34,886 nucleotides of DNA. It comes from a virus. The stretch spans positions 1 through 34,886 of IMG/VR virus record IMGVR_UViG_3300047494_000031. The stretch is one strand, 5' to 3'. How positions within the stretch are numbered: the stretch's first letter is position 1; each line of letters begins with the position of its first letter. The notes below the pieces were generated by a model, which saw nothing but the letters and a program-made list of their open reading frames with translations, made no database searches and was not told where the DNA came from. A program made the translations under genes and the position numbers. Below are positions 4,067 to 34,886 of this stretch, piece by piece.

Positions 4067-4199
4067 CTCGATCTCTCCAGACGTCCCAGCCGTCATAACG
4101 CTGTTCTTTGCGGATGCGCCGATTATCCAAGGCGGATAAGACGAACCCAAGGCAAACGATGATTTCGACAGCGCCTAACGCACAAAAGAACCCGTTCAT
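4056..4199 (-). CDS. Small membrane protein (47 residues)
   Basis: The protein starts at ATG 4199, overlapping the preceding TGA as ATGA, and its end overlaps the Rmf-like gene by 11 bases. It has a single hydrophobic segment near the N-terminus (MNGFFCALGAVEIIVCLGFV) followed by a charged tail with RRIRKEQRYDGWDVWRDRD. The expected topology is one inner-membrane helix with a cytoplasmic tail. No family is recognised. Confidence 0.6.
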   Translation of the reverse strand: MNGFFCALGAVEIIVCLGFVLSALDNRRIRKEQRYDGWDVWRDRDGI

Positions 4200-4303
4200 C
4201 GACTGAGTATCCTTTTCCACCATTTCCACCAATCGCGCTGGGCGTAATAAATCCTCAAGCCCATACGCTGGCGGAAGTTAAGGCGGTGACGGCTAAAAAC
4301 CAT
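4196..4303 (-). CDS. Possible 35-residue Arg/Trp-rich peptide
   Basis: The frame runs from ATG 4303 to a TGA that overlaps the next ATG, so translational coupling supports it. The peptide is strongly basic and tryptophan-rich (GLRIYYAQRDWWKWWKRIL). No ribosome site is visible before ATG 4303, and ATG 4267 is an internal alternative. It is the first candidate gene after the leftward promoter at 4457-4485. The composition resembles membrane-active peptides, but that is only resemblance. Confidence 0.45.
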   Translation of the reverse strand: MVFSRHRLNFRQRMGLRIYYAQRDWWKWWKRILSR

Positions 4304-4456
4304 AAGTGGGTGACATCGGCCTGTTCGTTGCAACAACACAACACGAGAAAGGAGTAGGGACCGTTTTAAGCAACGTCCGTCAAAAGCGCTTCACAGCGGG
4401 AACCTTTAGGGGTGAGTTAAAGGTAAACACGGATCAGTCGCCGATGCCACAGACAT

Positions 4457-4485
4457 TTTGTACACCTAGATTTGACGGGTTTCAA
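4457..4485 (-). promoter_or_regulatory. Candidate leftward promoter for the late block
   Basis: On the minus strand TTGAAA (4485-4480) is followed after 17 bases by TACAAA (4462-4457). It faces a gene-free stretch of about 150 bases and then the run of genes from 4303 through terminase and, round the circle, to 15115. Matches to the sigma-70 consensus are moderate (5/6 and 4/6). The 192 bases between 4304 and 4495 hold no gene that I can support. Confidence 0.4.
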
Positions 4486-4495
4486 GCATTATTTG

Positions 4496-4570
4496 TCAGA
4501 GCTTATGCCTAAGCTCAATCGCCTTGAACTTGCTTTCCCAATAATCGATTGTTGCTTGATCTTGAGTCAT
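4496..4570 (-). CDS. Possible 24-residue peptide
   Basis: The frame starts at ATG 4570 with a good AGGAG site six bases or so upstream and encodes MTQDQATIDYWESKFKAIEL plus RHKL. It is short, charged and probably helical. The ribosome site is the main support. It follows the 46-residue gene by 32 bases in the same direction. Function unknown. Confidence 0.5.
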   Translation of the reverse strand: MTQDQATIDYWESKFKAIELRHKL

Positions 4571-4602
4571 AAAATCTCCTGCCAAAAAGGTAGGTCTAGG
4601 TT

Positions 4603-4743
4603 TTAATCAAAAAGAGGTTGTTGGTCATCAATTAGGAATAGCTTTACTTTTCTCCCTTTCCAGTCAGAAGGAAGCGCTGTAAATCCTAAGTAAGCTTCAC
4701 AGCTTGTTGCTGTTCGGACCTCTACAATCAGTTCGTTATCCAT
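4603..4743 (-). CDS. Hypothetical 46-residue protein
   Basis: The start at ATG 4743 is set by a strong AAGGAGATAGGT ribosome site; upstream codons in this frame run into the iteron-like repeats and are unlikely to be translated. The protein is small and beta-like (MDNELIVEVRTATSCEAYLG, then GRKVKLFLIDDQQPLFD). It is the first gene downstream of the promoter at 5114-5143. No family is recognised. Confidence 0.65.
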   Translation of the reverse strand: MDNELIVEVRTATSCEAYLGFTALPSDWKGRKVKLFLIDDQQPLFD

Positions 4744-4772
4744 ACCTATCTCCTTTAGCTCTTGATCTTTAC

Positions 4773-4853
4773 TAAGCCCCATTGGTGAGAGCCGGAGCAA
4801 AGCGCCCCCCTAACCCCCATTGGAAGTCAGAGGAGCAAGCTAAGCCCCACTGG
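4773..4853. repeat. Three iteron-like imperfect direct repeats
   Basis: Copies of TAA-S-CCCCA-Y-TGG start at 4773, 4811 and 4841. The first two are each followed after eight bases by GGAGCAA (4794-4800 and 4832-4838). Spacing is 38 and 30 bases. The repeats lie in noncoding DNA just upstream of the 46-residue gene. Iterated protein-binding sites at a phage origin or operator look like this; no binding protein is identified. Confidence 0.55.
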
Positions 4854-5028
4854 AGCCAGCCGTCGCTATGCGCCCGAGAACTCTCTTTAAGTGCGTTCTC
4901 GTTCAACCCGACCTACGGACGACAAATGCTCCCAATAGGCCGCCCTAGCTTGCACAGGGCCTGACACTACCCGCAGTGCTTCCGTTGGCGTCTTGACACT
5001 AGGGGATGAGAGCGGAGAAGATGTGGAT

Positions 5029-5118
5029 GCCCACCATGTGGGCCCAAATCCTATCGAGTCGCTATCTCGAAGGTCATGACGCCAGGGTGTTTCGTCGCAC
5101 CGCTGGCGTTTTCTTTGT
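5029..5118 (+). ncRNA. Tandem three-hairpin RNA element with a terminator-like 3' end
   Basis: Three stem-loops follow one another. The first is GCCCAC/GTGGGC (5029-5043, 3-base loop). The second is TCGAG/CTCGA, extended by CCT/AGG across a bulge (5050-5073). The third is ACGCCAG plus GGTG paired with CACC plus CTGGCGT, ending near 5110 and followed by TTTTCTTT. Read rightward it looks like a short RNA ending in an intrinsic terminator, with TTGACA at 4993-4998 as a possible -35 but only a weak -10 near 5017-5022. Read leftward, the same hairpins are the first 80 bases of the transcript from the promoter at 5114-5143, which recalls the paired hairpins of HK022 put antitermination RNA. Both readings are inference. 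Confidence 0.45.
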
Positions 5119-5143
5119 ACGCTACCGTACATAGTGACGTCAA
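5114..5143 (-). promoter_or_regulatory. Candidate leftward promoter overlapped by an inverted repeat
   Basis: On the minus strand TTGACG (5143-5138), an 18-base spacer and TACAAA (5119-5114) form a plausible sigma-70 promoter. A perfect inverted repeat TGTACG-CTAC-CGTACA (5116-5131) covers the -10 and much of the spacer, where a repressor would block it. The same -10 (TACAAA) is used in the candidate promoter at 4457-4485. The expected start site is near 5107, just before the hairpin array. Confidence 0.5.
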
Positions 5144-5209: not shown

Positions 5210-5416
5210 TTAAAGCCTTTGTGTAAACGAAGGGATACTCAACGCGGCAGAGAGATATTTACCAGCGAGCTCGTTATAGCCATCAGCCGCAAGCTCATAA
5301 AACGTATCAATGATAAGTTTGCGTTGCCGCTCTCTTTCGCAATACTTATTGCGTGCTTCGATGATTACAGGATGCCGGCTAATATCTTGAGTCGAATCAA
5401 ACGTGAAATTATCCAT
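5210..5416 (-). CDS. Hypothetical 68-residue helical protein
   Basis: This is the last gene of the leftward early operon. It overlaps the previous gene by eight bases. The protein looks helical and charged (KYCERERQRKLIIDTFYELA) and ends with ALSIPSFTQRL. The ribosome site before ATG 5416 is weak, so it may depend on coupling. No family is recognised. Confidence 0.6.
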   Translation of the reverse strand: MDNFTFDSTQDISRHPVIIEARNKYCERERQRKLIIDTFYELAADGYNELAGKYLSAALSIPSFTQRL

Positions 5417-5627
5417 GCTTGATAGTTAAAGACTCTCTAAGGTCATGTTTCATCGTGGCCTTTTTAGGCTCATCTTCTATTGGCTGAATGCAATCTGGGA
5501 TTGCTTTTCGCAGCTTCCCCATCAGACGATCAGCCTCCGTTATATCCCTGGTAGTAAAACAAACGATCCCGTTCACTAATACCTCGTACTGTATAACTTC
5601 TTTAAAGGTCACTTCGCTGGTCATCAT
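5409..5627 (-). CDS. Hypothetical 72-residue protein
   Basis: The start is one of two adjacent ATGs (5627 or 5624) behind an AGAGGAAAG site; earlier codons overlap the previous gene and are not protein-like. The protein reads as strand-rich then helical (SEVTFKEVIQYEVLVNGIVC, DITEADRLMGKLRKAIPDC), like a small alpha-beta domain. It is part of the leftward early operon. Function unknown. Confidence 0.65.
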   Translation of the reverse strand: MMTSEVTFKEVIQYEVLVNGIVCFTTRDITEADRLMGKLRKAIPDCIQPIEDEPKKATMKHDLRESLTIKHG

Positions 5628-8266: not shown

Positions 8267-8542
8267 ATGGTCGCTAAGAAATCGCTTCGCCCCGTTATTG
8301 TCTGCACCGAACATCGTGGTGTTTTTTTCGGATATGCGTACAACACCAAAGGCACTGAAATTGAACTTAAAGGAGCTCGTATGGCTATTCGTTGGGGCAC
8401 GACTAAGGGCGTTATGGAACTTGCTTTAACTGGCCCAACAAAGAGCAGCAATATTTCCGCACGCGCCGATATCGATGTGCGTAAAGTCACTGCCGTTTTC
8501 GAAGTGACCGATGCAGCCACGGTTGCATGGGAGGCGGCATAA
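8267..8542 (+). CDS. DUF6948-like phage protein
   Basis: This 91-residue protein starts at ATG 8267 behind AGGAGAGG. The sequence VIVCTEHRGVFFGYAYNTKG, then EIELKGARMAIRWG, then VRKVTAVFEVTDAATVAW follows the family I know as DUF6948: a strand-rich domain with H-R-G-V-F-F-G-Y and an A-R-x-x-x-x-W motif. Members sit at the start of early or accessory operons in diverse phages, often beside a Gly-rich repeat protein, as here. The role is not known. The following gene overlaps its stop (TAATG). Confidence 0.7.
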   Translation: MVAKKSLRPVIVCTEHRGVFFGYAYNTKGTEIELKGARMAIRWGTTKGVMELALTGPTKSSNISARADIDVRKVTAVFEVTDAATVAWEAA

Positions 8543-9051
8543 TGAACGCATGGTTCAATTACAAGCCACTCGTAACCGTGGTTGATGTGCTTGATGCTGG
8601 CGCATGTATCGATGGCGTTTTGTCTTTTGTCGATAAAGTACGCGTTATTTCCGGAGATGCTTCTAAATACGCCAAGGAAGGCTGGATTCAATTAGGCGCA
8701 AACGGCGACGGCGACGGCTACGGCGACGGCGACGGCAACGGCTACGGCTACGGCTACGGCTACGGCGGCTACGGCGACGGCGACGGCGACGGCAAAGGCT
8801 ACGGCGGCTACGGCTACGGCAAAGGCTACGGCGACGGCGACGGCGACGGCTACGGCTACGGCTACGGCAACGGCGGCTACGGCGACGGCGACGGCTACGG
8901 CAAAGGCTACGGCGGCTACGGCTACGGCTACGGCAAAGGCGACGGCAAAGGCTACGGCTACGGCAACGGCGGCTACGGCGACGGCGACGGCGACGGCAAA
9001 GGCTACGGCGGCTACGGCTACGGCAAAGGCGACGGCGGTTTAGTGGAGTAA
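8542..9051 (+). CDS. Gly-Asp/Tyr/Lys/Asn dipeptide-repeat protein
   Basis: Translation starts at ATG 8542, overlapping the previous stop, with a GGGAGG site. Residues 1-52 form an ordinary small domain (YKPLVTVVDVLDAGACIDGV, then ISGDASKYAKEGWIQLG). The remaining 115 residues or so consist almost only of Gly-X steps with X = Asp, Tyr, Lys or Asn, often as GYGDGDGDGKG. Each amino acid uses one codon (GGC, GAC, TAC, AAC, AAA), so the DNA is a six-base repeat. Gly/Tyr/Asp repeats of this kind are known in phage proteins next to DUF6948, with no assigned function. The tail is probably disordered and could condense or bind metal or surface partners. Confidence 0.85.
   Translation: MNAWFNYKPLVTVVDVLDAGACIDGVLSFVDKVRVISGDASKYAKEGWIQLGANGDGDGYGDGDGNGYGYGYGYGGYGDGDGDGKGYGGYGYGKGYGDGDGDGYGYGYGNGGYGDGDGYGKGYGGYGYGYGKGDGKGYGYGNGGYGDGDGDGKGYGGYGYGKGDGGLVE
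8764..9030. repeat. Nested six-base and 63-base direct repeats within the Gly-rich gene
   Basis: A 63-base block is repeated exactly at 8764-8826 and 8968-9030, 204 bases apart. Around and between them the DNA is a GGC-NAC hexamer array (about 8704-9036). Every insertion or loss of six bases keeps the frame, so length can change without breaking the protein. The two copies diverge immediately after the block (TACGGC against GACGGC). Confidence 0.9.
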
Positions 9052-26614: not shown

Positions 26615-27597
26615 GAGCCGAATCCCGTATCAGGCACTTGCGCATTGGAAAGAAGACGCACGCCCGTCTGCTGTGCATTCGTCGGTAAGTTGCGCACGCT
26701 GGATTGACGACCCTTATAGCGGGAGATGGAGTTATCCCACATGGTGCGCTCTTCGGAGTAATCCAAGCCTTTTGCCATCCGGTAACGCCAGATAAGCCCA
26801 AGAATGAACGTGTCATCATCCAGCGCATAAATGTCGCTATCAGCCGCCCAGCGACCTTGGGGCTGGCCCTGCACGCTCTGGCACCAGCTGTGTGAGTAAT
26901 ACTCAAAGACAAGCTGATTACTGTCGTATGGAACAGGATCAATATAAAACTGGTTTTGCATGATACGAAAACGCCGGCGCGGGCCGGTCGGGCTAATGCC
27001 TGACTTAAGCACCTGCCATTCTTGTGGATCAAGCGGACCCAGCAATTGCCAGCGAAATCCACGATCCCACTGTGTCTGAACGGTCATATGGTCATAGTCA
27101 GAAGGAAGCGCATAGGCTTCCTGACCAATCGCCATGGTGTTTGAGGTATTAGTATTTTCCGCCGTTGTCGATACTTGAATCTGCGTTGAGCTAATGATCG
27201 CGGTGATGGTAGTCGGATAAGTGAAATCCGTTGCGTTCGATCCACCCGAATTGCTGATAACCCATCCCACCTGTGGCGCAACGGCTGGCGTGGTGATGAA
27301 GTTAATCAGGTTAGAGCCTTGCGTATAACTAACGGTAATAAGGCCCGTCGATTGGACATTGAACAAGTATTCACGGCGCAGCGGCTGCCAGCCGTAATCC
27401 TTAGTGCTCATCTTGTACGTTTCATAGCCCTCGCGCTGCGCTAAGGCTAGAAGCTGCACAATTTGCTGATCCGAATTGCCAAAGATGGTCGATGGCTGGA
27501 TAAGACTTAGCTCACCGCATGCCTGCTGAATCATCTGAAGCAGGGTAAGCTTGATGGGATTGGGAGCATTCGCGCCAAGCTGGATGACAATCGTCAT
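26611..27597 (-). CDS. Head-tail adaptor / connector protein
   Basis: This 328-residue protein begins with an alpha-helical part (LTLLQMIQQACGELSLIQPS, then DQQIVQLLALAQREGYETYK), has a strand-rich centre and a helical end (FILGLIWRYRMAKGLDYSEE). Phrases such as ALPSDYDHMTVQTQWDRGFR and PRRRFRIMQNQFYIDPVP occur in the phage adaptor family that joins portal and tail. Its place next to the gp10-like and fibre genes agrees. Start ATG 27597, overlapping the fibre stop. Confidence 0.78.
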   Translation of the reverse strand: MTIVIQLGANAPNPIKLTLLQMIQQACGELSLIQPSTIFGNSDQQIVQLLALAQREGYETYKMSTKDYGWQPLRREYLFNVQSTGLITVSYTQGSNLINFITTPAVAPQVGWVISNSGGSNATDFTYPTTITAIISSTQIQVSTTAENTNTSNTMAIGQEAYALPSDYDHMTVQTQWDRGFRWQLLGPLDPQEWQVLKSGISPTGPRRRFRIMQNQFYIDPVPYDSNQLVFEYYSHSWCQSVQGQPQGRWAADSDIYALDDDTFILGLIWRYRMAKGLDYSEERTMWDNSISRYKGRQSSVRNLPTNAQQTGVRLLSNAQVPDTGFGS

Positions 27598-28742
27598 ACG
27601 CTGTACTCATAGACAACTATGACCGCATTGGATCCCGCGCTCCCCGCCACAGCGGCCGACGATGCGGCGAGCTGAACAGCGCCACCGCCACCTGCACCAA
27701 AACCAGTACCAGCACCAGCAGCGCCAGACCCCGTGGCACCGCCAAAGCCCAAAAGAGAATTACCACCACGCGAAGACATTACTATCGAGCCGCCTGCCAA
27801 AACATAGCCAGGACCACCGCCCTGCCCTTGTAGAGAAACAATAGTGGTGCCGCCCGTAATCGTTGGCGCTGACGAAACCGACGATCCATTGGCCTGTGTA
27901 ATCGTCGATGCGGCCGAGCCGGCAGAACCTGCGGTTCCACCCGGACAACTGATTAAGGCTCCAAAAGATGCTGTGGAGCCCGCAGTACCCGCATTGGCAC
28001 CTGCTGCGCCACCCGCGCCACCTGCGGGAATAGTGACAGCGACGCCGCCAGTGAAGCCGGTAGCGAATCTAGCCCGGGCAAATGATCCACCCCCACCCGC
28101 TCCCGCCACGGCACTTTGACCTGCGCCTGTTGCCGGCGTTCCACCGCCACCACCGCCAGGGGCCTGGACGTCCACCACCACATAGGAGGTTCCTGCGGTA
28201 CTGTTATAAGTACCGGTGGCCGATAACGTCTGCGTATTGATAAGACGGCCGGTAAATCCGGTTAGCGTCCCTGTGGCCGTCAAATTGGTGAACGAACCTG
28301 TGCTAGCTGTCGTCGAGCCAATCGCAGGCGGTGAAGCAAAAAGCGCGATGAACCCATTACCGCTTACATTTCCACTGGCGGAAAGACTGGTAAAAGCGCC
28401 GCTACTCGGCGTCGTTGCTCCAATGGGCGTGTTGTCGATCGACCCGCCTGTGATAACCGTCGTCTGGCCGTTTGCCGGGTCATCTTCTAAGGGGAAGTCT
28501 TGCAGATTGTAACTGACGCCCTGATAAGCAATCAAGAGCGAATAACGGCCGTTTGCTGCATAAAATGCAAATCGGCCGTTAACGTCCGTCGTGAGAGGAT
28601 TAGCGGTCGTTGTAATGCCGTTATCGCTATAGATGGCCGCAATTGCACCGCCAGGATAGGTGAGAACAGTAACGTTCGCTCCCTTTTGCGGAAGGAGCGT
28701 CTGTCCATTCTGGCCTAGGACAATATCCGTGTATTTTTGCAC
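27594..28742 (-). CDS. Tail fibre with polyglycine receptor-binding domain (GTG start)
   Basis: This 382-residue protein starts at GTG 28742 (AAGGA upstream). The N-terminal part (YTDIVLGQNGQTLLPQKGAN, then DNGITTTANPLTTDVNGRFA) is a carbohydrate- or capsid-binding-like domain. The middle has two fibre motifs (PIGATTPSSGAFTSLSASG and AIGSTTASTGSFTNLTATG). The last 180 residues or so are glycine/alanine-rich strands with GGNSLLGFGGATGSGAAG and end in SNAVIVVYEYSV. Polyglycine-rich tips like this are known from T-even adhesins, where they bind host receptors. Confidence 0.82.
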   Translation of the reverse strand: MQKYTDIVLGQNGQTLLPQKGANVTVLTYPGGAIAAIYSDNGITTTANPLTTDVNGRFAFYAANGRYSLLIAYQGVSYNLQDFPLEDDPANGQTTVITGGSIDNTPIGATTPSSGAFTSLSASGNVSGNGFIALFASPPAIGSTTASTGSFTNLTATGTLTGFTGRLINTQTLSATGTYNSTAGTSYVVVDVQAPGGGGGGTPATGAGQSAVAGAGGGGSFARARFATGFTGGVAVTIPAGGAGGAAGANAGTAGSTASFGALISCPGGTAGSAGSAASTITQANGSSVSSAPTITGGTTIVSLQGQGGGPGYVLAGGSIVMSSRGGNSLLGFGGATGSGAAGAGTGFGAGGGGAVQLAASSAAVAGSAGSNAVIVVYEYSV

Positions 28743-28751
28743 GGCACGTCC

Positions 28752-29129
28752 TTATTTGCTGATCCAGGTCAATCCGTTAGTAGATACGCAGGTCAAATAG
28801 TCAAGCGCCCCGGCCGCTAGACTTAATGATGCGCCACCGTTGATGGTGCCACCGGTCGGCGGATAAATAAGCACGGCATTAGCACCTTCATTGGCAATGC
28901 AGTACTCATCGAACAAGCCCGTGAAATTGGGTGCCCCGGTTGTCCCGGGCGGCAAGATAACGCCCGTGCCTGATGCGGCGGTGGTAATCAACGTGTTGCA
29001 GGCCCCAATGGGATAGGCGGTGGCTGCATTCGTACCCAATGCCGTCACAGCGGGGTCCACGTCGCCGATGATGTTAACGACCTGCAATGGCGAGAACCCG
29101 GACCCGCTTAACTTTTTCTGTACTGACAT
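28752..29129 (-). CDS. Small structural protein
   Basis: This 125-residue protein starts at ATG 29129 with GGAGAG nine bases upstream; the open frame further up is not used. It is a Gly/Ala/Thr-rich beta protein (FSPLQVVNIIGDVDPAVTAL, then SGTGVILPPGTTGAPNFTGL) resembling minor head or tail-spike base proteins. It lies between the AT-hook-like protein and the fibre. Function not certain. Confidence 0.7.
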   Translation of the reverse strand: MSVQKKLSGSGFSPLQVVNIIGDVDPAVTALGTNAATAYPIGACNTLITTAASGTGVILPPGTTGAPNFTGLFDEYCIANEGANAVLIYPPTGGTINGGASLSLAAGALDYLTCVSTNGLTWISK

Positions 29130-29130
29130 G

Positions 29131-29787
29131 TTAACTCTCCTTGGGAGGGCGTCCCGGCTTTCGCTTGCCTGTGGCCGGTTCAATCTCGGTGCCAGCAAGC
29201 GCGGCAAGTTCCTTGACTTGAAGTGTCAAAGCATCCACCTGGGCTTGCAGCTGTTCGTTTTGTTTAGCGAGCTTTGCCTCGCCGGCATGATTCTTTGCCG
29301 ATTCGATCCACGCTTTTGCCTCATCACGCCGTTTACGGCCGCCGAACCATGTCAAGGAACTATCTGGCAATGCCGCCAACTGCTCGACCGTGTAGATGTT
29401 CATCTGCTTGAACGCATTGGCTTCGGACTTGCTCAGCGGCGGCCAGTTATCCAAGGATAAGCCCGATTCGGCTTCCCGCGTATTGTTCTGGAATGCATCC
29501 CACTGCGCACGGAAACGAAGATGGTCAAGCGGACCCGTATCCGTCGGATCGTCTGGACGAAGTTTAGCGGGTCGATCCCATTGCTTGGTGCGGTCGCCCG
29601 GGACCATGATGCGAATCCACGGCACGTCGATATGAATCGGACGCCCTGCCTCTTCGGTCAAATCCGGATCTGGATGAAGACTAGGGGCTAGGTAAAACTC
29701 GGCGTAAAGGTTTTGATCGGAGCCAGTGGAAGCCATGGCAACGGTTGCGCCTCGTGGCATATCTACTTTGTGCTCGGCAAATTGCAT
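29131..29787 (-). CDS. Head protein with C-terminal AT-hook-like motif
   Basis: This 218-residue protein begins with a domain of strands (ATVAMASTGSDQNLYAEFYL, then VPWIRIMVPGDRTKQWDRPA). It carries a helical part (MNIYTVEQLAALPDSSLTWF) close to a helix-hairpin-helix and a coiled coil (LAKQNEQLQAQVDALTLQVK). It ends in GKRKPGRPPKES, an AT-hook-type motif (K/R-x-GRP-x-K). Such a tail could hold DNA in the capsid or guide assembly. I know this type of protein from podovirus head clusters but not its function. Confidence 0.72.
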   Translation of the reverse strand: MQFAEHKVDMPRGATVAMASTGSDQNLYAEFYLAPSLHPDPDLTEEAGRPIHIDVPWIRIMVPGDRTKQWDRPAKLRPDDPTDTGPLDHLRFRAQWDAFQNNTREAESGLSLDNWPPLSKSEANAFKQMNIYTVEQLAALPDSSLTWFGGRKRRDEAKAWIESAKNHAGEAKLAKQNEQLQAQVDALTLQVKELAALAGTEIEPATGKRKPGRPPKES

Positions 29788-29800
29788 GAATCACCTCGTG

Positions 29801-29825
29801 AGAGAAAGAGGCCCCGGAGGGCCTC
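29801..29825 (-). terminator. Intrinsic terminator after the head genes
   Basis: On the minus strand GAGGCCC (29825-29819) pairs with GGGCCTC (29814-29808) over a four-base loop and is followed by TTTCTCT (29807-29801). It lies between the 197-residue head protein gene and the next gene. It probably reduces transcription of later genes relative to the coat gene. Confidence 0.75.
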
Positions 29826-29844
29826 ATGGGTAAGTATGTTAATT

Positions 29845-30438
29845 TTATGTTATAGCGTCCTGGCCGCACGGATATTGCAGCAAGACGACGGCCTGCGTAT
29901 TAGGCAGCACCTGCGCTGAGCTGCCAGAGCCAAGCGTAATGCCGTTGGTGCTAGCAAACTGTGCACCTTGCATCTGCTTCGATGCCACAGCAGTACCAGA
30001 AACAACGCCAGAGGCCTGCCAATAGACTGGTGTATTAGCCGTAGGCGTGCCGCTAACCTGCGTGATGGCTGGACCCTGGACCTGAAACCAACCCCAGTTA
30101 CCTACAAAGCCAGTGGCCGCTACAGCGACGCCCAGAGGATTGCCCGCATTAGCGGTGCCCGTCCATACGGTAGCCGTGGTAATCAGCAAGCCAGCAGCCG
30201 ACAGGGATTCGGTGAACTGAACGACCGTGCCAGCGACGATGGTGGCACCATAAGCGGCATAAACGAACGTGCCACCGCCAAGACGCGTATCGTAGCCACG
30301 CAGCTCGCCGAAGTACTGCGAATTGCGACCATAGGTTGCGCCAGAGGTACCCGGAATCGAGAACGGACCCGGGCCACCGTTGTCAACGATGCTCAGGTCA
30401 ACTTCACCTAAGATCGGATCGTAAGCGACAAATGCCAT
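29845..30438 (-). CDS. Head decoration-type protein
   Basis: This 197-residue, nearly cysteine-free, Gly/Ala/Thr/Val-rich protein directly follows the coat gene (AAGGAG before ATG 30438). It reads as an all-beta protein: MAFVAYDPILGEVDLSIVDN, then YAAYGATIVAGTVVQFTESL and NPLGVAVAATGFVGNWGWFQ. The placement and the GVA-x-x-A-T-G phrase suggest a capsid decoration protein of the type that follows major capsid genes. The exact family is not certain. Confidence 0.72.
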   Translation of the reverse strand: MAFVAYDPILGEVDLSIVDNGGPGPFSIPGTSGATYGRNSQYFGELRGYDTRLGGGTFVYAAYGATIVAGTVVQFTESLSAAGLLITTATVWTGTANAGNPLGVAVAATGFVGNWGWFQVQGPAITQVSGTPTANTPVYWQASGVVSGTAVASKQMQGAQFASTNGITLGSGSSAQVLPNTQAVVLLQYPCGQDAIT

Positions 30439-30450
30439 GATAGTTTCTCC

Positions 30451-31440
30451 TTATGCCGAGAGGACCGCTTGCAAGCGGCGGTTGCTGACGGTCATGTTAC
30501 CGGCGAAACCGATAAGCTTAACCATGGCGTCCTGGTTCACGGCGTAACGATCATCGCCCAGCGGGGCGAAGAAACGATCGACATGCGGACGGAAATAGAT
30601 GTAGTCGGTATTGAGGAAATACATGGTGTTCGCAGGCGCGCCACCACCGAAGCCGCCATCGAGCACGACATCGGAATTCATGTACTTCAACACCTGATAG
30701 CCAGCATCAGCCATCTTGGCATCACCGATACGCTGAATGCCTTGCAGCGATTCCAGATACAAGCGGTAGTAGTTGTTATCGGCGACGATCAAGTCCGGAT
30801 GGTCAGCACCACGAACCTGCTGCACCCAAACCTGATTCATATAGGATTGGATGTTAGCGGCCGTTGCCGGTGCACCACCATTGGTCGCCGAACTGAACGC
30901 GGTATTGCGCCAGAACGTACCAATCGTGGTCGATGCGTCAATACCGCCCACGACGCCGGTCGCAGGCGTCTTTGAGACAAGCAAAGCAAGACCACCAATC
31001 TGGCGCCCGCCATCGGCCGAACCGTCCGAATAACAATCCAACGCGGTATTGTTCGTGATGGTCTTTTCGCCGTTCTTGATGCGCGATTCCAAGAGATCGA
31101 TAATCGCCTCTTCGCCGGAATTCTGGATCATTTCCAGGCCAGAGATAGAGATCGCAACGGCAGACTGTGCGTAGTTGAACTCTGCCCCGGTAAAGACGTC
31201 AGAGGGCGAGATATTCAGCGCTTCATACCCGCTGTAGCGCTTATACGTGCCGTTCTCGGCGTATTCCAGTTCTTGCACAATCGTGCGGCCACCGGATACA
31301 GGCTTAACATTCTCTTTTTCTTTGAGACGGAATAAGAGGGCATTGTTCTTGGTGACGTTATCCGCCAACTTACCCGTGCGATTGCGCAGGGTCGTGGTGA
31401 CGATTTCCGTCAGCGTGGTACTCGGGTTAATCAGTGCCAT
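30451..31440 (-). CDS. Major capsid (coat) protein
   Basis: This 329-residue protein comes after portal and scaffold genes. Motifs such as KLADNVTKNNALLFRLKEKE, then EALNISPSDVFTGAEFNYAQ, and NNYYRLYLESLQGIQRIGD resemble the HK97-fold coat proteins of podoviruses. It forms the capsid shell. AGGAG lies six bases before ATG 31440. It is the largest Gly/Ala-balanced protein of the head group. Confidence 0.85.
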   Translation of the reverse strand: MALINPSTTLTEIVTTTLRNRTGKLADNVTKNNALLFRLKEKENVKPVSGGRTIVQELEYAENGTYKRYSGYEALNISPSDVFTGAEFNYAQSAVAISISGLEMIQNSGEEAIIDLLESRIKNGEKTITNNTALDCYSDGSADGGRQIGGLALLVSKTPATGVVGGIDASTTIGTFWRNTAFSSATNGGAPATAANIQSYMNQVWVQQVRGADHPDLIVADNNYYRLYLESLQGIQRIGDAKMADAGYQVLKYMNSDVVLDGGFGGGAPANTMYFLNTDYIYFRPHVDRFFAPLGDDRYAVNQDAMVKLIGFAGNMTVSNRRLQAVLSA

Positions 31441-32478: not shown

Positions 32479-32813
32479 AATACCTTTTTAGTGGCCTGGA
32501 TTAATTCTTTCTTGCAGTCAAAATCGCCGCGCAGCTCGCGTTTCTTGGGTGCATCGGGCATTTCGACGTAATCATTACGACGCAGGAACTCTTTATGCTC
32601 CTTGCGCGATGTGATGTAAGGACGTTTCCCAGATCGCTTATCGACCGCGACAGCCTGATAGGGCTGGATATCTACTGAAACCATCGTCGGCGAAAGGATA
32701 TTGACCATGCGCTTACCACAGCATTCGGGCAAATCCTTTTCACGGTCAGCCATGCGCCTAACTATCTCTTCAACCTTCCCGCAGTCGTAACACTTCACGT
32801 CATACAGAGGCAT
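32469..32813 (-). CDS. FmdB-type zinc-ribbon protein
   Basis: This 114-residue protein starts at ATG 32813 (AGGA eight bases upstream). MPLYDVKCYDCGKVEEIVRR with PECCGKRMVNILSPTMVSV contains two Cys pairs (C-x-x-C and CC) arranged as in the FmdB / CxxC-x-CxxC zinc ribbon family. The C-terminus is basic (ITSRKEHKEFLRRNDYVEM). It sits between portal and scaffold in many podoviruses. Function unknown; a role in assembly is plausible. It overlaps the scaffold by ten bases. Confidence 0.8.
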   Translation of the reverse strand: MPLYDVKCYDCGKVEEIVRRMADREKDLPECCGKRMVNILSPTMVSVDIQPYQAVAVDKRSGKRPYITSRKEHKEFLRRNDYVEMPDAPKKRELRGDFDCKKELIQATKKVLCT

Positions 32814-34886
32814 TGTCATCATCCTGCGACTGCTGAGACTGCTTTAACTGGTCCGTTAGATCATGAGCGCCGTCAACCATCGCCATGCCGTTGCCGGCTT
32901 CCGTTTCGTGAAGCTCTTGATAGGCCAGATCAGCGGTCCCATCCGTCGGGAAAGCTTTCGAGCCGATGCGAGCCGATGCGATCTGCGCTTCGGCCCTGAT
33001 ACGAGCCACAGCAATAGCCGTCTTATAGGCATATTCCTGCCTCATGGTCTCGATCTGAATTTCATTATTGGCCTTGAGCTGATCGCGCTGCGCTTCAAGC
33101 TGATTCTGTTGCGCAGATTGCTGGGCCTGAGCTTGCTGTTCGGCCTGCCCAATCTGAATTTGCGCCTGGGCTTTGATCTGCTCTATCTGCTTCTGTGCCT
33201 CAACCTTGCCCTGCTCGATCTGCATATCTGTCTGTGCACGAAGCTGCTGCGTTTTCTGCTCGCCTTCCTGCTTCATTTGCTCGATCTGCTGAGCGCCCTG
33301 CATCTTCATCTGCTCGGGATTGGTCTTAGGCGGTGGCGGCTGTTTAGCCAGCTGGTCAAGGGTTTGATCGATCACGCCTTCCAGGCTGCGTGCCTGAGTA
33401 AAGCCACGCACAATCCACTTAATTGACTCAATCATGAGCGGGACTACAGTCGGGTTGGTCTCGCCAGCCTGAACAGCCTGCTGAATCAATGGGCCAAGCG
33501 TTTTTAAGAACTCAAGCCGCTGCATTTTCTCCGTATCGTCATCGTCCCCGATGGTCGAATCGGTCTCTATATCAAGCCGGAACTGGCGCATTGCGTTGTT
33601 ACGCAACAATGCCTCTACATCTTCCCAACTTGGCTGGGCGATCTGGTTTTGTACTTCTGGTGGAAGTGGTGCGGGCGGTTGCGGCTGTGGCGGCGGCTGA
33701 TAACCCGGTGGTGGCTGCTGGCCCATCTGCTGCATTTGCTGAGCATGTTGCTTGCCGGCATTCCACTGTTGCATCGCGGCCTGGAAATGCTGCATCGCTA
33801 TTTGCTGCTGCATCTGAACCATTTGCTTTTGCTGATTAGTCATCAGCTTGACGCCCGATATTTGAGCGAGCGTCTGGTAACTAATATGGTTAGCAATGAC
33901 CTCGCCCATAAGGCGGATCATGTCGCGCATAAAGCGCTGTACTTCGTCCTGCACGGCGCGAAGACGTATCGATCCATACTGGCCCTTGATCTTTTCCGCC
34001 GTCGCCGTAGAACGCGGATCGTTAGCGCCTCGGATAATATCAGGCATGCCAGAGACTTCATAAAGATCGTTTTTGATCTTGTCCCGGGCCTGATACATCA
34101 TCATCAGGGTGTTAGCGATCTCTTGAATGGGGAAGAGTTCAAAGGTTCCTTTGAGGCCACCTTTCTCGGCAAACATGGCCCATTCTTCCACCGGGATCAG
34201 CTGGTTTTCTGTTCCTTCGGATAACAGCCGGTCAATGCCATTAGCACCTGCAGCGTAAACACCACAGACCTTAAGCGAGCGAATAACCGAACTGATTCGT
34301 GCGGTTAACTGATCCAGTTCTCGGGCCTGATCCTGATACTCCGAATAGTCGGCCGTCGGAATGATCGAATCATTCGCCGTGGTCGCCAGCAATGGCTTAG
34401 GACAGGGGAAGAACTTTTCAAGCTTAAGCGGATCTTCGCGCTTATCCAGGAAGTCCGGCATCTTCTTGTGGACCCACACCGCACACTTAGTGCGCTTGTC
34501 CCACATTTCAAAGATGCGCGCCTTCTTCATCGCCTCCGTGATCTTTTCATCGGCTAGGTTCTTCGGGCTGTAATCGAGCGGTATTTGCTTACCTTTCTCT
34601 GAGCCGAAACGCTCAATGCATTCATTGCGGTCTAGAAAGACTTCGCGCCAGACAAGATAAACTTCATCCCACGTCCGCGAGACGTTGTGTCCGAAGTTCT
34701 CCCAATGGACGTAATCGCAGACCACTTCCTCATATTCGACGATCTCATCGTCTTCAATGTCCGACGGGTCAGAGCCCACCATGGACGTATCGCGTTCGAC
34801 AAGCTCGCTGGAATCATCCGTAACTTCTGGGCCATTCTCTTTGACTTCGTCCGTTCCAGCGTCGTCGGAATCATTGTCACGATCCT
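32800..34886 (-). CDS. Portal protein, main part (joins the copy at 1-566)
   Basis: This is the rest of the portal of about 841 residues. The clip/stem region has GLKGTFELFPIQEIANTLMM and DLYEVSGMPDIIRGANDPRS, found in P22-type portals. A Pro/Gln-rich stretch (QQPPPGYQPPPQPQPPAPLP) follows, then a long Gln/Glu/Lys coiled coil (QIEQGKVEAQKQIEQIKAQA), which would form the helical barrel inside the head. This C-terminal extension makes it longer than P22 gp1 (725 residues). The last 127 bases here duplicate 1-127, so the gene should be counted once. Confidence 0.92.
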   Translation of the reverse strand, partial: DRDNDSDDAGTDEVKENGPEVTDDSSELVERDTSMVGSDPSDIEDDEIVEYEEVVCDYVHWENFGHNVSRTWDEVYLVWREVFLDRNECIERFGSEKGKQIPLDYSPKNLADEKITEAMKKARIFEMWDKRTKCAVWVHKKMPDFLDKREDPLKLEKFFPCPKPLLATTANDSIIPTADYSEYQDQARELDQLTARISSVIRSLKVCGVYAAGANGIDRLLSEGTENQLIPVEEWAMFAEKGGLKGTFELFPIQEIANTLMMMYQARDKIKNDLYEVSGMPDIIRGANDPRSTATAEKIKGQYGSIRLRAVQDEVQRFMRDMIRLMGEVIANHISYQTLAQISGVKLMTNQQKQMVQMQQQIAMQHFQAAMQQWNAGKQHAQQMQQMGQQPPPGYQPPPQPQPPAPLPPEVQNQIAQPSWEDVEALLRNNAMRQFRLDIETDSTIGDDDDTEKMQRLEFLKTLGPLIQQAVQAGETNPTVVPLMIESIKWIVRGFTQARSLEGVIDQTLDQLAKQPPPPKTNPEQMKMQGAQQIEQMKQEGEQKTQQLRAQTDMQIEQGKVEAQKQIEQIKAQAQIQIGQAEQQAQAQQSAQQNQLEAQRDQLKANNEIQIETMRQEYAYKTAIAVARIRAEAQIASARIGSKAFPTDGTADLAYQELHETEAGNGMAMVDGAHDLTDQLKQSQQSQDDDNASV
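34760..34886. repeat. Terminal overlap, right copy
   Basis: This is the exact second copy of bases 1-127, within the portal coding sequence. It is best regarded as the assembly overlap of a circular map. Real genome ends cannot be read from it. Confidence 0.95.

Follow-up and report, generated by a model that had tools for sequence, protein, structure and literature searches.

The three hairpins at positions 5029-5118 of the window, by which we mean the whole 34,886-base phage contig analysed here, are, as judged from sequence comparison, the overlap of two opposed transcription units, not a put site and not a small RNA standing alone. The predicted products of these units, a short terminated rightward RNA and a long structured leftward RNA, form an RNA pair that has not been described before; this RNA family is not represented in Rfam and is unusual in its two-strand design. 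The pair itself is recognised by comparison and is well supported by the sequences of its relatives. As to its function, we infer, with slightly better than even confidence, that the segment is a counter-transcribed RNA module, in which an antisense RNA controls a replication RNA that possibly acts as a primer. The pair probably regulates the copying of the phage DNA in a way similar to that of some plasmids.

The window probably represents a near-complete genome. Judged from the layout of a relative (L020), it appears to be circularly permuted with the portal gene spanning the contig ends, this gene apparently being split across positions 1-460 and 32800-34886. The three stems sit in the interval that separates the early genes, which run leftward from 8122 to 5210, from a small open reading frame (ORF) of 46 aa (4603-4743, minus strand), which directly follows the element and is absent from the other members of the family; in the window, the RNA element is located at the end of the early genes. 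A preliminary description of this DNA had placed the stems in a gap free of genes, and no gene was recognised between the ORFs at 5210-5416 and 4603-4743. Elsewhere, the plus strand carries a low-complexity ORF (8527-9051) consisting almost wholly of G, D, Y and K repeats (GDGDGYGYG), and one phage carrying the element, L168, has a similar repeat region on the corresponding strand.

The stems, at 5029-5043, 5050-5073 and 5079-5109, fold as claimed in the preliminary description, and they do so on both strands. The three-hairpin segment folds with -38.9 kcal/mol on the plus strand (z -4.5, 0 of 200 shuffles as good) and with -35.7 kcal/mol on the minus strand (z -3.8, 1 of 200 shuffles as good). 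Paired substitutions preserve all three stems in homologues, so that the observation withstands the refuting condition set in the preliminary description, namely stems not kept by compensatory changes; the stems covary and the loops vary. Hairpin 3 (5029-5043), which is the first in the antisense RNA, reads GCCCAC/GTGGGC, GCACA/TGTGC or GGCAC/GTGCC in different phages. In hairpin 2 (5050-5073), which has a variable loop of 7-9 nt, pairs also covary (G-C/A-U and A-U/U-A). Hairpin 1 (5079-5109) is the terminator hairpin when read on the plus strand and the first hairpin of the long RNA when read on the minus strand. It shows compensatory C-G/A-U and A-U/G-C pairs: across the close phages an A-U pair is changed to C-G and a G-C pair to A-U, with the bulge kept. 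This 5' domain folds on both strands, as a counter-transcript needs, with z values of -6.0 (sense) and -5.2 (antisense) in the close phages and of -8.8 (sense) and -11.4 (antisense) in the distant group.

Just upstream of the stems lies a rightward promoter missed in the preliminary description (4993-5022, plus strand), with a -35 box TTGACA (4993-4998), a spacer of 18 and a -10 box GAAGAT (5017-5022). Both boxes are invariant in the five closest phages; the spacer varies, being 18 in the window and 17 in the others. The conserved blocks of the 5' part that lie outside the stems, ATCTTC and TGTCAAG, are the reverse complement of CTTGACA-N17/18-GAAGAT. In the distant members the equivalent place is occupied by TTGATA, TTGATT or TTGCTA, followed after N17 by TAGGAT, TAGTAT or TACTAT. 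Since the promoter sits just before hairpin 3, the predicted RNA comprises just the three hairpins and terminates in the T tract TTTTCTTT (5109-5116, plus strand), which was found where it had been placed before; the A/T tract is kept when the sequence of hairpin 1 changes from CGCCCG to GCCCCG. The putative antisense RNA (5029-5118, plus strand) would be ~90 nt long, its start being set from the -10 box, and its three-hairpin fold is present in 5/5 close members. Its predicted length is 88-92 nt in the five close phages and 84-90 nt in nine of the ten distant members. The exception, L273, has a weaker TTGCTC-N17-TATCCT, which would give 73 nt. The rightward alternative of the preliminary description, a small RNA with its own terminator, is therefore borne out by the conserved promoter, three hairpins and terminator, which predict an RNA of 84-92 nt in 14 of the 15 homologues, with constant promoter spacing and constant length from the presumed start to the end of the T tract.

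The leftward promoter also lies where it had been proposed (5114-5143, minus strand): a -35 box TTGACG (5143-5138) and a -10 box TACAAA (5119-5114) are separated by a spacer of 18. The close phages conserve the leftward pattern CTTGAC-N17/18-(TACAAA, TAAAAA or CCAAAT), with CTTGAC and its distance to hairpin 1 retained in 5/5, and the RNA is predicted to start at hairpin 1. In L273 the sense promoter reads TTGACG-N17-TAAAAA. The members linked to rusA show no evident promoter dedicated to the sense RNA, so that their long RNA may be no more than a stretch of an operon mRNA. The long sense RNA predicted for the window is a structured noncoding transcript of ~360 nt (4747-5107, minus strand; start taken from the promoter boxes), to which covariance model R1 gives 345 bits, the scores in the 14 other members being 55-377 bits.

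The first ~85 nt of the long RNA are complementary to the short RNA. To the left of the stems there is a further ~240 nt of conserved structured RNA (4757-4990), which the preliminary description had overlooked. In the window group these remaining 240 nt fold on the leftward strand only (z -6.6 versus -1.95). The conserved 3' core of the sense RNA (4758-4967, minus strand) has a mean column identity of 74% in alignment A9, which comprises 12 sequences. Covariation in the core, measured over 12 members, is 0.386 versus 0.149 (sd 0.016) in shuffles, none of 500 of which reached it, and slid controls gave at most 0.10; the fold of the core is confined to the sense strand (z -7.6 versus -2.2 on the antisense strand). 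A G-rich motif at 4798-4818 (minus strand), GGGG-TTTA-GGGGG in most members, is nearly invariant in A9, and this pattern retrieved the distant members. The possibility that the 5' part is protein-coding, being open in L082, L083 and L168, was rejected: the window has stops on either side in that frame, and it is base pairing and not codons that is conserved.

The first homologues came from loci fetched by terminase and a small structural protein, which gave three phages, and from a scan for the hairpin 1 pattern, which added one. Besides the window, the close members are L083 (1505-1900), L082 (255-440), L004 (1583-1750) and L168 (7180-6774). About 370 nt are common to L168, L083 and the window. 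In L082 and L004 the similarity is limited to the 5' ~150 nt, corresponding to the short RNA and its promoter, with unrelated sequence in place of the 3' core; a hairpin near 1922-1965 of L004, 3' of the element, is a possible terminator. Ten more divergent members were obtained through the G-rich 3' motif; they are full length and score 55-99 bits with model R1. In most of them the sequence of hairpin 1 is new (GCCCCG for CGCCCG) with the A/T tract intact, and hairpins 2 and 3 are rebuilt. Altogether, the covariance searches against related phages, as suggested in the preliminary description, recognise 15 members; membership was judged on viral contigs only, and the independent count is slightly below 15 because L265 and L271 are identical over the element. 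Three further loci retrieved by sequence patterns (L266, L270 and L282) gave no model match. No Rfam family matched the window and the four close members (E up to 5-10) or five further loci (E up to 1), no DNA similarity was detected by blastn in phage or plasmid collections, and no tRNA or tmRNA was found. Weak matches of 19-25 bits to the model in bacterial genomes were treated as noise. A search for relatives in host genomes with the small structural protein returned none. A capsid search found prophages of Robbsia, Paraburkholderia and Chromobacterium among others, and five genomes from this search contained no match to the element model.

The element is usually found among phage replication genes. 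Nine distant members lie directly before a codirectional primase-helicase-like gene, most of these being behind rusA. The nine downstream genes start with MNLEQ...TRIRCPVC...RKK, a zinc-finger primase start; Pfam was applied to one of the nine, L268, and the families of the other eight were read from the start sequence. In L268 the gene downstream is a primase-helicase of the Toprim plus DnaB type, and RusA is encoded upstream, near a Sak annealing protein. In L273 the element lies between genes for SSB (upstream) and a helicase (downstream). In both L004 and L168 it follows a Cro-like gene and another ORF, and downstream of it is encoded a protein that is limited to the C-terminal domain of O-like initiators and has no origin-binding part (3947-4525 in L242 for L004; 12290-12811 in L239 for L168). 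No downstream gene is common to the members. In the window, L082 and L083 the gene in this position is not one for replication, and these three phages have no recognisable gene for DnaB and none of DnaC type or O type. Neither a tyrosine integrase in the element phages of the window group nor a ParA-type ATPase (PF13614) in the five close element phages was detected. The closest sister phage lacking the element, G001 (L243), has a capsid 95% identical and carries a DnaB gene (4115-4837) in the slot between the Cro-like gene and the late genes, where its relatives carry the element. This suggests an exchange of replication modules. The element does not stand out as an origin by GC skew: the window shows no flip, and in three distant phages the element lies near a local minimum that coincides with a change of gene direction.

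A second candidate leftward promoter, TTGAAA-N17-TACAAA, and after it a leader closed by the inverted repeat GTGGCATCGGC / GCCGATGTCAC occupy 4485-4310 (minus strand) of the window. The same layout, with a repeat of 14-15 nt and an identical -10 box, is seen in L020 at ~4085-4260, and L004 has at 5390-5500 a promoter and then a strong terminator. The window region 4485-4310 is probably the true late promoter with its leader. The earlier proposal that the promoter at 5114-5143 feeds the late block is doubtful in view of this separate downstream candidate at 4485-4457. A role of the element as a dedicated leader of the late promoter was rejected for the same reason and because four close relatives carry the element kilobases upstream.

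How the pair may act is suggested by a third strand. The sequence GTCAAGACGCC (4987-4997, minus strand), which overlaps the antisense -35 box, could pair with the 3' arm of hairpin 1 (5073-5083) as an alternative to hairpin 1. Direct reading of sequences from a few lineages reveals that an inserted base in a hairpin 1 arm is matched by an inserted base in this downstream strand, and that, in the window, the one base by which the lineages differ is changed in all three pairing strands (A/C, T/G, A/C); in the alignments of the rusA-linked group, GGCTTGA in hairpin 1 is complementary to TCAAGCC at the start of the core. Since the 3' arm of hairpin 1 has two possible partners, its own 5' arm and the downstream strand, we infer that pairing of the short RNA with the nascent long RNA would alter the fold of the latter. 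The choice of fold would then determine how often the long RNA becomes active. That the active long RNA serves replication is less sure than the change of fold. Most likely, the transcript would stay hybridised at its G-rich end and prime DNA synthesis, as does ColE1 RNA II, from which Pol I starts after cleavage by RNase H; failing such a primer role, it would be an antisense-controlled leader of replication genes. Several observations weigh against a role in replication: the place of the element in the window, at the end of the early genes and before a small ORF with no recognised role, the short copies in L004 and L082, the GC skew, the lack of an evident sense promoter in the rusA-linked members and the lack of detectable similarity to the ColE1 core. 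By eye, neither a terminator nor a trapped ribosome-binding site is seen after the core, the visible ribosome-binding sites being outside it. Together with the lack of a conserved downstream gene, this favours action by the RNA itself and is no proof of it.

The antisense-controlled leader is the main alternative. Here, in the style of CopA/CopT or pT181, the short RNA would block translation of, or elongation into, the replication gene that follows, and the long RNA would be the 5' leader of a replication-gene mRNA. The nine members placed directly before a codirectional primase-helicase-like gene, without an obvious dedicated sense promoter of their own, speak for this explanation, as does the O-like gene downstream in L004 and L168. 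Against this, the downstream gene differs between members and is not one for replication in the window, L082 and L083, the features of translational or transcriptional control mentioned above are not visible after the core, and the strongly conserved 3' core exceeds the needs of a simple leader. We regard the leader as possible, with a probability well under one half. An oop-like or otherwise trans-acting small RNA with a target elsewhere, the long structured RNA being a separate regulatory RNA, appears unlikely. The place of the element in L004 and L168, after a Cro-like gene and another ORF, is that of lambda oop, and the short RNA, like oop, runs against the early operon; however, it overlaps the end of neither a repressor gene nor a cII-like gene, and a target in trans would not require the fixed overlap of 84-92 nt between both units that is maintained across very divergent phages.

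The other reading offered in the preliminary description, a put-like processive antiterminator whose leftward hairpins make RNA polymerase ignore downstream terminators, is very improbable. The tandem hairpins do begin almost at the leftward start site and point in the direction of the late operon, and L004 has a strong terminator after the promoter ahead of its late genes. However, the conserved unit is one of ~360 nt with a large 3' domain and not two short hairpins, it includes a conserved opposed promoter and terminator, in 4/5 close phages it sits kilobases upstream of the late operon, and the distant members are in replication operons with no obvious promoter ahead. In addition, blastn detected no match to any phage record, HK022 included, and model R1 finds nothing in HK022 27000-30500. 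Least credible of all is a type I toxin-antitoxin system, with the long RNA encoding a small toxic peptide and the short RNA as antitoxin: size and overlap resemble those of hok/sok, but the window, L083 and L168 share no conserved small reading frame, and stops occur in every frame.

One may tentatively go further and suppose, at well below even confidence, that the element represents an undescribed family of phage origins in which a structured RNA transcribed by the host primes DNA synthesis under three-hairpin antisense control, and which arose independently of ColE1 and is exchangeable with DnaB or O modules. To our knowledge, the way in which replication starts in phages without a recognisable initiator is mostly unknown. 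The element provides a defined and compact RNA module with 15 natural variants, perhaps a phage origin under RNA control or a switch of replication, parallel to ColE1 without descending from it. Confirmation would open the way to new replicons whose incompatibility can be programmed through the variable loops of the hairpins, and to a new means of acting on the copy number of phage DNA.

Several known systems share features with the element. As in HK022 put RNA, a phage transcript begins with hairpins in tandem; unlike put, to which no similarity was found, the element is much larger and has an opposed promoter and terminator. The short RNA described here recalls lambda oop, likewise a short antisense RNA with a terminator that lies at the replication module of the early operon, but it overlaps no cII-like gene and opposes a long structured noncoding RNA. 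In CopA/CopT of plasmid R1, a terminated antisense RNA with two hairpins acts against a leader upstream of replication genes. The element resembles CopA/CopT and other rep leaders in this arrangement, and at least nine members, but not the window group, occupy such a position before a replication gene; it differs in having no conserved downstream gene, three hairpins rather than two and a large conserved 3' core. The layout of the element is the one known from ColE1/pMB1, in which the three-hairpin antisense RNA I is complementary to the 5' end of RNA II, a long noncoding RNA with two folds (PMC8683028, PMC11012335). Both systems have a terminated three-hairpin antisense RNA of ~90-110 nt (here predicted) that ends at the start of a long structured noncoding RNA, with a G-rich motif near the 3' end of the latter and with variable hairpin loops; unlike ColE1/pMB1, the element is found in phages, beside replication genes. 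The element does not match RNAI (RF00106), which the same Rfam library finds in two real ColE1 plasmids. A homology to ColE1 RNA II suggested by eye (CGGGTTG..GGCG..AGCG) was unsupported, the best score of model R2 over five ColE1 origins, with filters off, being 4.2 bits. With no homology detected by sequence or structure model, the element is at most an analogue of ColE1. Finally, extrachromosomal mycobacteriophage prophages that have no Rep protein replicate by means of a noncoding RNA, which lies next to parABS (PMC7157519). These RNA-based origins, although from other phages and hosts, are a precedent for RNA-based replication in phages (PMC7157519).
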